Shown here piece by piece: positions 49,963 to 54,289 of a DNA stretch of 64,000 bases. Position numbers and translations under genes: made by a program. The stretch comes from Echinicola strongylocentroti (GTDB taxonomy: Bacteria > Bacteroidota > Bacteroidia > Cytophagales > Cyclobacteriaceae): assembly GCF_003260975.1 (NCBI RefSeq), contig NZ_CP030041.1, forward strand, positions 3,778,501 through 3,842,500. The letters are read 5' to 3'. Within the stretch, counting starts at the first letter, position 1; every line of letters begins with the position of its first letter. The notes beneath the pieces are model-generated. The model searched no databases, had not been told where the DNA came from, and was given only the letters and a program-made list of their open reading frames with translations.

Positions 49963-51132
49963 ATGAAAACGATTTTTCCAGCCTCTATAGTCAATCAAAC
50001 AACTGAATATTATCAAGGCAAAATATCCGTAAGGTCAAAGGTCATTTATACCAGTGTACTCGTCGCTTTGGCCGTAATGTTGGTGAGTCTTCCTTTCATT
50101 TATGTGGATGTATCGGTGAGTGCTAGGGGTAGTTTTCAGACTTCCTTGGGACGAAATGAAATCCACGCGCCTGTTTCTGGCAGGGTATCTTCGATTAATA
50201 TCGTCGAAAATGAGTCCGTAAAACAAGGGCAGGTACTGGCAGAGATCAAGTCGGACCAAGTGGATTTGGAGATTGACGGTGTGAACAGCCGGAAGGCGTT
50301 GGTACAGAATTTTATTGCTGACCTGCGTAAATTAATGAAGGTTAGTCCCAATCAGATAGATGATTTTTTGGGACGTACACTGACGACGAAGTATTATCAA
50401 GCAGCATTTTTTGAATATGTGTCAGGCGTACAGCAGCTACAAACGGTGCTCGAAAAAGAAAAACGTGACCTCAAACGTGCGAAGGTACTTTTTGATAGTA
50501 AGGCGATTTCGGCAGTCGACTATGATGAGTACAGGTCGAAGTTTGAGCAGTCTCTGGCCAATTTGGACATTTATCATAGTAAAAAAATCTCTTCTTGGGA
50601 ACAGGAGTTACGCGATTACCAGAATGAATTTGATGAGCTGGCCAATAGTAAAAAATTGCTCCGGGACCGGTTGCATCAATATAAGATCGTGGCGGGTGTT
50701 GCTGGGACGATCATTAACTTTGAGAATATTAAAATGGGGGATTTTGTATTTGCCAATCAAAAGATGGCTGAAATATCACCTGATAGCACCTTGAAGGCAG
50801 TGGCTTTTTTGGATCCAGCCGATATTGCTTTTGTCCAACCTGGCCAAAAGGTGAATTTTCAAGTGGACGCCTATGATTATAACCAATGGGGACTGTTGGA
50901 GGGAACGGTCGAAGAGATTGCCAAAGACATCAATATGATCAGTGAAAACGAAGTGGCATTTCGAGTTATTTGTAATTTGAGCAAGGAGGCGCTTTACCTA
51001 AAGAATGGCGTGGAGGGTGATGTGAAGAGGGGGATGACTTTTAATGGCCGGTTCCTAGTAGCCAGGCGTTCATTGTACCAATTGTTGTATGACAAAGTAG
51101 ATGACTGGCTCAACCCAGCTTTGAAAAATTAA
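49963..51132 (+). CDS. HlyD-family periplasmic adaptor of a peptide exporter
   Basis: The 389 residues show a short cytoplasmic N-terminus and one membrane helix (VIYTSVLVALAVMLVSLPFIYV, about 28-50). A first lipoyl/barrel half follows with GRNEIHAPVSGRVSSINIVENESVKQGQVLAEIKSDQ, then a coiled-coil hairpin of about 130 residues, and the second half VAGVAGTIINFENIKMGDFVFANQKMAEI. It would bridge the inner-membrane exporter to an outer membrane channel. The exporter gene starts 13 bp downstream. No TolC-like gene is in the window. Confidence 0.9.
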   Translation: MKTIFPASIVNQTTEYYQGKISVRSKVIYTSVLVALAVMLVSLPFIYVDVSVSARGSFQTSLGRNEIHAPVSGRVSSINIVENESVKQGQVLAEIKSDQVDLEIDGVNSRKALVQNFIADLRKLMKVSPNQIDDFLGRTLTTKYYQAAFFEYVSGVQQLQTVLEKEKRDLKRAKVLFDSKAISAVDYDEYRSKFEQSLANLDIYHSKKISSWEQELRDYQNEFDELANSKKLLRDRLHQYKIVAGVAGTIINFENIKMGDFVFANQKMAEISPDSTLKAVAFLDPADIAFVQPGQKVNFQVDAYDYNQWGLLEGTVEEIAKDINMISENEVAFRVICNLSKEALYLKNGVEGDVKRGMTFNGRFLVARRSLYQLLYDKVDDWLNPALKN

Positions 51133-51145
51133 TGAGAGTAGTTTC

Positions 51146-53299
51146 ATGAGCAGAAGAATTAAGCAACGGGATATTACGGACTGTGGAGCGGCTTGCCTAG
51201 CCTCCATAGCGAGTAGCTATAAGCTGAACATGCCTATTTCTAAAATAAGGCAGCTGGCTTCTACCGATCAAAAAGGTACCAATGTGCTGGGGCTGATAGA
51301 GGCTGCCGAAGCGCTGGGATTTTCAGCCAAGGGGGTGCGGGGGAGTTTTGCAAGTTTGCACCAAATCCCAAAACCTGCCATAGCCCATGTGGTGATCAAT
51401 AAGACCCTTCATCACTACATGGTGATTTATAATGTGTCCAAACGCCATGTCAAGGTGATGGATCCGGCTGAAGGCAGGATGAAGAAATTTCCCCATGATG
51501 AGTTTAAGGAGATTTGGTCAGGTGTACTGGTTTTGTTAATGCCCAATGAAGAATTCAAAGCTATGAATGGTACCGTGTCAGTGGTGGGACGGTTTTGGTA
51601 CCTTATCAGTCCTCATAAAAGTGTGATGCTACAAGCTGTTTTTGGGGCGGGTATTTATACCATCCTTGGGCTGTCCACCTCCATTTACGTCCAGAAAATC
51701 ATAGATAATGTCTTCATCAGTAGAAATACCAACTTGCTAAACCTGATGAGCGTGGGGATGATCCTATTGCTGCTTTTTCAGGTTTTTATTGGAGTGTATA
51801 AGTCTGTTTTCGTCCTTAAGACCGGCCAAAAAATCGATGCTAGGTTGATTTTGGGCTATTATAAGCATTTGTTGACCTTGCCGCAGCGGTTTTTTGATAC
51901 CATGAGAGTGGGAGAGATCATTTCCCGTATCAATGATGCCGTGAAGATCAGGGCATTTATCAATGATGTATCTATCAACCTGGTGGTCAATGTGTTCATT
52001 GTGGTGTTCTCTTTTATGCTCATGTTTACATTTTATTGGAAACTGGCCCTGATCATGTTGATGATCGTCCCACTTTACTCTATTGTGTATATTATCACTA
52101 ATCAGCTGAACAAGAAGGCAGAACGAAAACTGATGGAAAATACTGCTGAGCTCGAATCACAACTGGTGGAATCTATCCATTCGGTGGGAACGATCAAACA
52201 GTTTGGGGCTGAGGGGCACGCTAATATCCAGACGGAAGGCAAATTTGTGAATATGCTTGGGTCTATTTACCGCTCAGGGGTCAACAATGTGTTTTCTGCC
52301 AGTTCTTCTGAGTTTATTTCTCGTTTATTCACCATTATTCTATTATGGCTCGGGGCAGGCTATGTTTTGAAAAATGAAATTACTCCAGGGGAGTTGTTGT
52401 CTTTTTATGCCCTGATCGGTTACTTGACAGGGCCCTTGGTCGGGATTATTGGCATGAACAAAACCATCCAAAATGCCCTGATTGCTGCCGACAGGCTCTT
52501 TGAGATCATGGACCTAGAAGTGGAAGAGCAGAAAGAAAAGTTTACGATCGATAAGGAGGCCATTGGCCATATCACTTTTAATAATGTGAGCTTTAGGTAC
52601 GGCTCCAGGGCGAAGGTCTTTGATGGGCTTAGTCTTGAGATTCCGAAAGGTAAGGTCACGGGCGTGGTAGGAGAGAGTGGTTCTGGAAAATCTACTTTGG
52701 TGGCGTTGTTGCAACACCTGTATCCGCTGGAGGCCGGCCATATAAAGATAGGGATTCATGATATAGCCTATATCGAGCATAGCTGTCTAAGGAAGATAGT
52801 GGGAGTGGTACCTCAGCGGGTGGACTTATTTGCAGGAAACCTCATTGATAATATTGCTTTGGGCGAATACCAGCCAGATATACAGAAAATCGTGGGGATA
52901 TGTCACGAGCTTGGGATGATGGATTTTATTGAAGGTTTGCCCAATGGTTTTGCCACTTTCCTAGGAGAAAACGGTGCCTCCTTGTCAGGGGGGCAAAAGC
53001 AACGGGTGGCCATTGCCAGGGCATTTTATAGGGATCCTGAAATTATCGTGATGGATGAAGCCAATGCTTCCCTTGATCCTAAATCAGAAGAATACGTACA
53101 AAGGGCCATTCGTGCCTTGGTGAAAAATGGAAAAACCGTTGTTTTTATTACACACAGGCTTGCGGCAGTTAGGGATTTTGATTGTATTTTGGTATTGGAA
53201 AAAGGGAAACTGGTGGAAAAAGGGAACCATCATACACTGTTTTCCCAAGAAGGAGCCTATTATCAAATGCTCCAAAAACAGAACTTTGTATTGGATTAA
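51146..53299 (+). CDS. peptidase-containing ABC exporter (C39 bacteriocin-processing type)
   Basis: The 717 residues hold three parts. The N-terminal C39 peptidase (about 1-140) has oxyanion Gln7, catalytic Cys13 in ITDCGAACLASIA, His in HHYMVIYNV and Asp in VMDPAEG. A membrane domain with about six helices follows (160-440). The nucleotide-binding domain has Walker A GESGSGKST, signature LSGGQKQRVAIARA, Walker B EIIVMDEANASLD and switch His in FITHRLAA. Such proteins cut substrates after a double glycine and export the C-terminal peptide. It lies between the adaptor and a GG-motif protein gene. Confidence 0.94.
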   Translation: MSRRIKQRDITDCGAACLASIASSYKLNMPISKIRQLASTDQKGTNVLGLIEAAEALGFSAKGVRGSFASLHQIPKPAIAHVVINKTLHHYMVIYNVSKRHVKVMDPAEGRMKKFPHDEFKEIWSGVLVLLMPNEEFKAMNGTVSVVGRFWYLISPHKSVMLQAVFGAGIYTILGLSTSIYVQKIIDNVFISRNTNLLNLMSVGMILLLLFQVFIGVYKSVFVLKTGQKIDARLILGYYKHLLTLPQRFFDTMRVGEIISRINDAVKIRAFINDVSINLVVNVFIVVFSFMLMFTFYWKLALIMLMIVPLYSIVYIITNQLNKKAERKLMENTAELESQLVESIHSVGTIKQFGAEGHANIQTEGKFVNMLGSIYRSGVNNVFSASSSEFISRLFTIILLWLGAGYVLKNEITPGELLSFYALIGYLTGPLVGIIGMNKTIQNALIAADRLFEIMDLEVEEQKEKFTIDKEAIGHITFNNVSFRYGSRAKVFDGLSLEIPKGKVTGVVGESGSGKSTLVALLQHLYPLEAGHIKIGIHDIAYIEHSCLRKIVGVVPQRVDLFAGNLIDNIALGEYQPDIQKIVGICHELGMMDFIEGLPNGFATFLGENGASLSGGQKQRVAIARAFYRDPEIIVMDEANASLDPKSEEYVQRAIRALVKNGKTVVFITHRLAAVRDFDCILVLEKGKLVEKGNHHTLFSQEGAYYQMLQKQNFVLD

Positions 53300-53312
53300 C
53301 CACGGACAGATT

Positions 53313-53651
53313 ATGAATTTCATTAAACATATAGAAAGACTTCAGCTTATTAATAAACTGGTGAGAGAGGAAAAAACAGGCTCCCCAGAGGAACTTTCGG
53401 CACGTTTGGGAATTAGCAGGAGGCAGCTTTATAACCATTTGGAAAGCCTCAAGGATATGGGGCTTGAGGTGACCTTTTCCAGAAAAATCAATAGCTTCCA
53501 CTATGTAGAGGAAAAGCATCTGGAAATGACCTTTACATTGAAGGTTATTGGGCCTGAAGAAACAGAAAATATTTATGGTGGGACCTATATTCCAATCATT
53601 CCAGAGTGGTGGCCGTTACCAGAGTGGGAGTGGATTAATGAAGCCGTATGA
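53313..53651 (+). CDS. HTH-domain protein with double-glycine motif and Trp/Pro-rich tail, candidate exporter substrate
   Basis: The 112 residues begin at ATG 53313, 13 bp after the exporter stop. Residues about 5-65 form an HTH fold of the HTH_11/DeoR kind (IERLQLINKLVREEKTGSPE, then LSARLGISRRQLYNHLESLK). Residues 77-90 read as a double-glycine leader end: Ile at -12, Glu at -8, Ile at -4, Gly at -2 and -1 (EETENIYGG). The last 22 residues are hydrophobic and acidic, with four Trp (PEWWP, PEWEW) and five Pro-type turns. Adjacent C39 exporter and adaptor genes suggest the tail is cut off and exported. The alternative is a local transcription regulator whose GG is coincidental. Confidence 0.72.
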   Translation: MNFIKHIERLQLINKLVREEKTGSPEELSARLGISRRQLYNHLESLKDMGLEVTFSRKINSFHYVEEKHLEMTFTLKVIGPEETENIYGGTYIPIIPEWWPLPEWEWINEAV

Positions 53652-54160
53652 CCGTTTTATCTCTTCTGCCGTGCATATAGGTTTTTTTGTTAGCAATCCC
53701 ATAAGTAGGGTAGAGGTCTTTTTTTTCAGGACTAATGAAGTTTTTTTAGTATAGTCTACCCATTGTGTGGAAAAAAGTAACCAGCCCTTGCAAAAGCGGC
53801 TTTGTAAAAGCCATTGGCTTGATAGAATACGGAAGAGAATCGCTGACTTTCAAATTATTTTTATTCCGTGCAAGTTTTGTGCACGCGCCCACCGTACCTT
53901 TAACATAACGTTTAGAAGCGCTAATCAGGGTTTGAGGTCCTGTATAGTATTTTAAGCTTTGGACAGCTTTATTTGTTGTTCACGAAGTCAAAAAGAAAAT
54001 AATAGGAAGAAACTACATTATAAAAGAATGTGCGGATTGATAGGGGGGAAGATAATCTGTGGCAAAGCCTAGGATTCGGACTTTCTTCAGGTTCAGTATT
54101 AACGCTCTTGGCACTAATATTGAGGTGTGATTGAGTAAATAGATTAAAGACAATATTTTT
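53652..54160. other. gene-free spacer after the export cassette
   Basis: About 500 bp without a supportable gene. Open frames are short and lack credible starts. A 14-codon frame at about 54028 encodes an internal GG but is too short to call. Confidence 0.45.
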
Positions 54161-54243
54161 TTATTTACTATGTTGGTGATTTTTTAGTTCTCGTGTTGAT
54201 TAACGTCAGAAGGGATACATGTGTGGTGTATCCCTTTCTTTTT
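54161..54243 (+). ncRNA. candidate small RNA element, copy 1
   Basis: The block TTTACTATGTTGGTGATTTT is followed by about 30 bases and a terminator-like hairpin (AGGGATACA and TGTATCCCT arms, 54211-54235) with a T tract. The same order of parts recurs at 54841-54923 with a different hairpin sequence. TATGTTGG is one base from the -7 consensus, which would give an RNA of about 60-65 nt. Confidence 0.4.
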
Positions 54244-54289
54244 GGGCACACTTACGGGCAACGTCATATTGGGAATCAAACCAAAATCA

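Follow-up and report, generated by a model that had tools for sequence, protein, structure and literature searches.

The last gene of an export cassette in Echinicola strongylocentroti encodes a 112-residue protein, in which a helix-turn-helix (HTH) DNA-binding domain is joined to a C-terminal segment that resembles the double-glycine (GG) leaders recognized by C39-peptidase exporters. The cassette lies in a window of 64,000 nucleotides, the whole stretch of DNA that was analysed, to which all positions refer. The HTH part very probably regulates a promoter with a palindrome beside it, as judged from sequence comparisons, and its leader-like end may allow the regulator to dock on the exporter. 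The features in question are the following:

49963–51132, + strand: HlyD-type periplasmic adaptor, 389 amino acids (aa); Pfam HlyD_3, 75 bits
51146–53299, + strand: exporter with C39 peptidase and ATP-binding cassette (ABC), of the peptidase-containing ABC transporter (PCAT) type, 717 aa, peptidase domain at residues 5–135; identified by Pfam, by sequence comparison with structures and by C-H-D motifs
53313–53651, + strand: HTH-GG protein, putative regulator, 112 aa; sequence, homologue searches, Pfam, AlphaFold
53313–53504, + strand: winged-HTH domain, residues 1–64, with recognition helix 36–48 and R37 at 53421–53423; AlphaFold, Foldseek
53541–53582, + strand: C39-type leader-like segment, residues 77–90 (KVIGPEETENIYGG); leader profile
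53583–53648, + strand: tail of 22 aa after Gly-Gly, with four Trp; sequence
53865–53887, no strand: candidate operator TCCGTGC-N9-GCACGCG, one outer arm decayed; pattern, genus alignment
53895–53902, + strand: candidate −7 promoter box TACCTTTA, fitting the −7 consensus and located 9 bp downstream of the palindrome core
54210–54243, + strand: terminator-like hairpin with T run, possible end point of transcription started at the operator promoter

The Cassette and Its DNA-Binding Protein

The genes follow each other in the order HlyD, C39-ABC exporter and 112-residue protein, all on the + strand and separated by two gaps of 13 bp. The exporter comprises the Pfam domains Peptidase_C39 (122 bits), ABC_membrane and ABC_tran; its peptidase carries the C-H-D motifs DCGAACL, HHYM and DPA and can be aligned by sequence with the solved peptidase domains of PCAT and ComA. 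With its C39, transmembrane and ATPase domains and the Cys-His-Asp motifs, the protein has the make-up of a PCAT, while the cut-off of NCBIfam TIGR01193 is narrowly missed (517.9 vs. 523.85 bits). Sequence and Pfam bear out the three-gene cassette, the 13-bp gaps, the HTH domain, the leader-like end and the four-Trp tail that a sequence-only reading of this DNA had described, and no immunity or modification gene is seen beside the cassette in the reading-frame lists, as that reading had also stated.

Residues 9–56 of the 112-residue protein match HTH_11 (PF08279) at 30.5 bits, above the gathering score of 25. AlphaFold models a winged HTH at residues 1–64, with block means of the predicted local distance difference test (pLDDT) of 91–96 for residues 11–60, followed by a lower-confidence helix at residues 81–88 (block means 76 for 71–80 and 63 for 81–90) and by a tail whose pLDDT is below 50 from residue 99 onward. 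The Gly-Gly pair would, in this model, be placed beyond the folded domain. Foldseek ranks BirA, NiaR and DNA-bound CggR highest (E 0.02–0.06; none at 1e-3). Members of a 59-row alignment match 11 NCBIfam families, not one of which names an HTH-GG family, and the five NCBIfam matches of the window protein are all under cut-off.

Protein searches at E ≤1e-3 returned 26 and 305 proteins; with the best 120 of the 305 listed, this gave 125 distinct homologues, which, as best-scoring matches, are a non-random sample. By a simple position rule, 113 of them carry GG at the expected place, seven carry Ala-Gly (AG) and five neither; the median tail is 16 aa long. At 63 named genome loci, the linker between HTH domain and tail ends in GG (48 loci), AG (7) or neither (8), i.e., in GG or AG at 55 of 63, and a same-strand C39-ABC exporter is present at 51; the other 12 include contig-end loci, exporter fragments and a few with neither. 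The expectation that HTH-GG proteins would recur beside C39 exporters, with conserved leader and variable tails, has thus been borne out. A simple pattern for the cysteine motif is found in 82 of 89 loci with a C39-ABC protein of more than 600 aa. The own phylum yields a match at E ≤1e-10 in 28 of 395 sampled genomes, the own family one at E ≤1e-3 in 132 of 295, short HTH-only relatives counted too. Three loci of Hallella/Prevotella (L055, L056, L061) combine, in one cluster, a free 79-aa HTH protein before HlyD with a 129-aa HTH-GG protein after the exporter.

A Conserved Leader-Like Segment

The leader-like end of the window protein, K77 to G90, has I79 at position −12, E83 at −8, I87 at −4 and Gly-Gly at −2/−1. 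A leader profile was trained on 113 nonredundant leaders, taken from free GG peptides that a regular expression had picked out near exporters, with the HTH proteins kept out of training; scored were the 12 residues preceding Gly-Gly in HTH proteins, and 2484 [GA]G windows from long proteins served as controls. The window linker falls into the top 0.7% of these controls. Among 54 nonredundant HTH linkers, 47 lie above the 95th and 41 above the 99th control percentile, and linkers score 1.5 on average, compared to −20.4 in controls and −15.2 after shuffling of the linkers. The leader-like end noticed by the sequence-only reading is therefore beyond chance, a point to which the GG and AG counts of the listed homologues also contribute. 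On the measure of this profile, the linker is a match to the leaders of the free peptides in the same clusters, and the window protein has a leader motif that fits the neighbouring cargo.

The leader is retained across strongly divergent HTH domains. In the two Echinicola subclades, the proportion of nonsynonymous differences (pN) in the linker is 0.000 (subclade A, with a proportion of synonymous differences, pS, of 0.87) and 0.011, at saturated synonymous distance. Moreover, the Gly-Gly pair is encoded by six codon pairs in eight Echinicola sequences and by four in 16 Flavobacterium sequences, and since these codons vary synonymously, GG is kept as protein.

In a further group, comprising seven genes in six genomes of the own family, Lys-Lys (KK) or Lys-Arg (KR) stands in place of GG, and the leader-like end is retained in the six sequences seen. 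Five KK members score 12.8–20.2 on the leader profile, a value reached by none of 500 shuffles; in the sixth, KR occupies the corresponding position, and the window with the highest score (8.8) lies outside the proper register. Intact C39 motifs are present in four of the six loci, those in which the exporter fell within the stretch examined. This group is the strongest hint obtained, and suggests that selection keeps docking rather than cleavage. Four loci with a KK or KR regulator (L167, L168, L170, L172) encode cysteine-rich peptides with leaders ending in FRGG.

A Candidate Operator That Covaries With the Recognition Helix

In Flavobacterium and in a group of homologues sharing the tail motif CFFYAR, the DNA encoding the tail contains an inverted repeat, TCCGTnn-N9-nnACGGA, which is followed by TAnnTTTG-like boxes. 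A strict pattern built on this arrangement (core CGTb...b'ACG, 7–15 nt, TAnnTT) yields 49 sites, distributed over 41 of the 107 nonredundant loci, compared to 0.2 to 1.05 loci per base type in shuffled sequence. The sites are concentrated near HTH genes (49 in 622 kb vs. 2 in 831 kb of flanks), and a GG leader lies within 350 nt downstream of 36 of the 49, vs. 7.5% of random positions. The gap between palindrome and box is 9 bp in 47 of the 49 sites, the pattern taking the first box in range and thus leaning to short gaps. At 26 of the 107 loci (26 of the 49 sites), the operator overlaps the 3' end of the HTH reading frame. A minus-strand control matched 12 loci; the palindrome is symmetric and this control hence unfair.

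Residue 37 of the HTH protein and base 6 of the operator agree at all 41 strict-site loci: Arg goes with G (19 loci), Ser with C (17), Ala with C (4) and Thr with A (1; L175, whose helix was entered by hand). When 16 cores were left free, a GC core appeared in 27 of 36 R37-Q38 loci, a symmetric CC core in only 6 of 21 S37-Q38 loci, and chance-like AT-rich cores also turned up; base 6 was therefore tested alone. The 17 S37 loci are mostly from Flavobacterium, so relatedness matters, and the covariation was placed on a tree of the exporter protein. This tree covers 50 of the 54 loci with an assigned base (the base of L167 is doubtful); beyond the 41 strict loci, these comprise 13 further ones, all with a GC, CC or CT core. 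Residue and base each change eight times on the tree, and six of six independent pairs agree (p 0.031). The sister exporters L009/L163 and L019/L023 differ in both residue 37 and base 6. The earlier suggestion that the HTH part might act as a regulator gains support from this covariation. The correspondence would, moreover, amount to a regulator–operator code, usable to predict the promoters under such regulators. The position of the operator over the −33 region and its near-invariant spacing favour an activator over a repressor.

The window copy is the sole exact match to TCCGTGC-N9-GCACG in the genome (6.25 Mb, one contig); a search of the genome for other operators with up to two mismatches found no excess over a reversed-pattern control (90/86 vs. 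106/108). The operator core forms an island of conservation in an alignment of eight Echinicola loci and, in Echinicola loci with a core match, starts 155–272 bp past the end of the HTH gene; a variant differing in one base is present in L104, and in L108 the operator lies inside the 3' end of the HTH gene. The −7 consensus TAnnTTTG was mapped at −12 to −5 in Flavobacterium psychrophilum (PMC9723704). With the same offset, transcription in the window would start at about 53907 and end at the hairpin at 54210–54243, which predicts a transcript of about 340 nt that encodes no recognisable GG peptide. Roughly 90 bp at 54150–54244 form a block kept in the genus (93–99% over the matched part in nine other matching genomes); it ends in the terminator-like hairpin and is not conserved as a reading frame. 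The idea of an operator-driven small RNA at this place was rejected, as the block also occurs in a genus genome that lacks the cassette and its fold shows no covarying pair.

Tail or Free Peptides as Cargo

Short GG-type peptides are encoded on the same strand near the exporter in 44 of 51 loci (counting 65 nearby on the same strand, 3 nearby on the opposite one and 17 in the remainder of the loci), and these free peptides, rather than the tail, are the probable cargo. Of ten such peptides, hand-picked from related clusters and the own genome, four reach the cut-off of the class IIb bacteriocin model TIGR03949 (NCBIfam) and none a Pfam cut-off; no TIGR04149 precursor scores above cut-off in the own genome. 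Free GG peptides from different genera (L017, L023, L026, L034, L048, L053) have a common C-terminal stretch (DWDNFKAGLKG, EWDDFKDGF) and, judged by eye, perhaps form one bacteriocin family.

The first proposal of the sequence-only reading was that the tail is the export product. The window tail contains no Cys and follows an N-terminal part of 90 aa. Tail codons have frozen synonymous sites in Flavobacterium (pS 0.14 vs. 0.64 in the HTH domain; 16 sequences) and in the CFFYAR group (0.24 vs. 0.85; eight sequences), which is explained by the operator overlapping the 3' end of the HTH gene. Tails shared between genera, PCFFYARN and ILLDGT, were accordingly dropped as candidate signal peptides or pheromones outside Echinicola: their synonymous sites are frozen, and their DNA is that of the palindrome and the −7 box. 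As a general proposal, export of the tail is not supported.

Within the genus, the idea could still hold. The Echinicola operator lies beyond the HTH gene in loci with a core match, which leaves the tail free of it, and in the two subclades the tail has pN 0.078 at pS 0.86 (four sequences) and pN 0.094 at pS 0.69 (three sequences). The HTH domain has pN 0.024 and 0.017 in the same subclades, and across eight Echinicola sequences the tail changes about five times faster. The tail is therefore constrained as protein within subclades, and might be a product there.

The Cassette in the Genus

The nearest named relatives of the 112-residue protein are from Echinicola, and homologue matches occur in 10 of 11 genomes of the genus, the own genome counted. 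In the window, L101 and L106, the cassette lies between genes for ribosomal protein L27 and an M16 peptidase (these names, and L21 below, are presumed from the sequences); the gene list of L103 shows L21 and M16, and the cassette of L108 is located elsewhere. In G169, the genus member without an HTH match, L27 and M16 are near each other with no cassette-like DNA between them, and no operator is found in 16 kb around the site.

GG peptides are present within 3.5 kb behind the HTH gene in L106, L107 and L108; in L106 and L107, the distance from the end of this gene is 155 bp to the operator core and 306 bp to the GG peptide. Behind its HTH-GG gene, L108 (genome G255) encodes two GG peptides, 53 and 62 aa long, and two membrane proteins that resemble immunity proteins of the CPBP type.

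Two further C39 exporters are encoded in the own genome. At L109 (C1:4341599–4344260), the exporter precedes a leaderless HTH relative (about 70 aa); together with a separate GG peptide of 69 aa and small membrane proteins, this makes up an unfused arrangement. L110 (C1:5247800–5251500) is a third C39 cassette, in which a glycine-rich 74-aa GG peptide precedes HlyD and C39-ABC; the genome search found no HTH relative there.

A Regulator That May Sense Export

Taken as a whole, these observations are rather better explained by a winged-HTH regulator of a promoter beside the cassette, which carries a cargo leader and docks on the exporter, than by anything else considered. The 112-residue protein would be a small winged-HTH regulator, to judge from the palindrome a dimer, whose promoter adjoins the cassette and in most relatives is that of double-glycine, bacteriocin-like peptides. 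At the C-terminus, the protein would carry a duplicate of the leader that marks cargo for the C39 exporter. Through this leader, the regulator may dock on the peptidase domain of the exporter in competition with cargo precursors, so that the amount of regulator left over for the promoter would be set by the availability of the exporter. The exporter could also clip the short tail of GG members; KK members it would only bind. Since the HTH domain keeps the leader after cleavage, cleavage alone would not release it, and the KK group is better explained by docking and competition than by processing. Chances are about even that these proteins form a family of one-component transcription factors with direct sensing of secretion: the exporter would bind the regulator by its leader and, where GG is present, clip it, and the occupancy of the exporter would set the transcription of the exported peptides. 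Such a mechanism could let a cell adjust the synthesis of peptides to its capacity for exporting them, with no need of a sensor kinase.

Several observations weigh against docking through the leader or against the operator. The strict pattern was drawn up after the loci had been seen; it demands symmetry at base 6, so that two T37 loci with asymmetric A/T sites, L025 and L160, are missed. It finds nothing in 66 of the 107 loci, and no site for divergent recognition helices such as SERWLY, for which a dyad scan also gave mostly nothing or probable terminators. Seven of the 54 linkers fall under the 95th control percentile, some through register errors of the script, the linker of the CFFYAR group is under weaker constraint (pN 0.35), and profile scoring finds no leader-like end in the non-GG members L027, L151, L164 and L178. 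The 84-aa proteins of Cyclobacterium (L027–L029) have neither GG nor tail and have lost the leader, and the leaderless relative at L109 adjoins a C39 exporter, so that such a regulator can evidently do without a leader. Finally, the pattern search detects no GG peptide within 3.5 kb behind the HTH gene in the window and L100–L105, i.e., in 7 of 10 genus loci.

This last point also speaks for an oversized leader, in which the HTH domain would chiefly serve to carry the tail, and the latter would be exported as a pheromone or bacteriocin. The purifying selection on Echinicola tails at the protein level and the conservation of linker and GG at saturated synonymous distance fit this explanation as well. 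It is nonetheless unlikely, given the covariation of recognition helix and operator, the free GG peptides in most loci and the operators overlapping the 3' end of the HTH gene; furthermore, the tail is reduced to 2 aa in L026 and absent in L027–L029, and the KK/KR group has no GG to cleave after.

Somewhat less likely still is an ordinary cluster regulator, which binds the operator and never meets the exporter, its leader-like end being a relic of gene fusion or a dimerisation helix. The leaderless relatives beside C39 exporters, own genome included, and the loss of the leader in Cyclobacterium would be expected of such a protein, but not the retention of a segment that fits the profile of neighbouring cargo leaders across strongly divergent HTH domains, nor a linker almost without amino-acid change in Echinicola. 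It is very improbable that the palindrome works as an attenuator or terminator hairpin in RNA, or that it is bound by a different regulator and has no relation to the HTH protein: its dyad symmetry, T-rich centre and, in some species, location inside the 3' end of the HTH gene would suit a hairpin, but the constant 9-bp spacing and the covariation with residue 37 would not, and Rfam reports nothing but tRNAs above gathering scores in seven related loci and, in the window region, one sub-threshold match away from the palindrome (E 0.35; 27 bits vs. a gathering score of 90).

Relation to Known Systems

As in class II bacteriocins and bacteroidetocins, a C39-ABC exporter of the PCAT type is combined here with a double-glycine leader motif. 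The leader of bacteroidetocins is free-standing, whereas in the window it is the C-terminal end of a DNA-binding protein. Bacteroidetocins are described as having a leader of 15–16 aa and a mature peptide of 42–48 aa with cysteines (PMC6671954), features not shared by the window protein with its 90-aa N-terminal part and Cys-free tail; the terms regulator, HTH and helix-turn-helix are absent from the main text of that paper. Among titles and abstract beginnings of the open-access literature searched, no description of an HTH protein with a double-glycine leader was recognised, and none of the regulation of Bacteroidota double-glycine peptide clusters beyond PMC10352776, part of which names one HTH gene (in one cluster) and one two-component system.

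BirA, NiaR and CggR, the best fold matches, differ from the window protein, which has no ligand domain and carries a C39 leader instead. The precursors of the Nif11 and NHLP types have a long folded leader before Gly-Gly, as does the window protein, which matches neither in Pfam or NCBIfam at E ≤0.1; a candidate DNA operator is associated with the folded part here. A functional parallel is provided by export-coupled regulators such as FlgM, ExsE and LcrQ, where a secretion machine reads and removes a regulator of its own genes. These are anti-factors or co-regulators and leave by flagellar or type III export, whereas the window protein is a DNA-binding protein with the leader of an ABC exporter, whose own export is putative; if it docks via this export tag, the cell may sense its own export directly.

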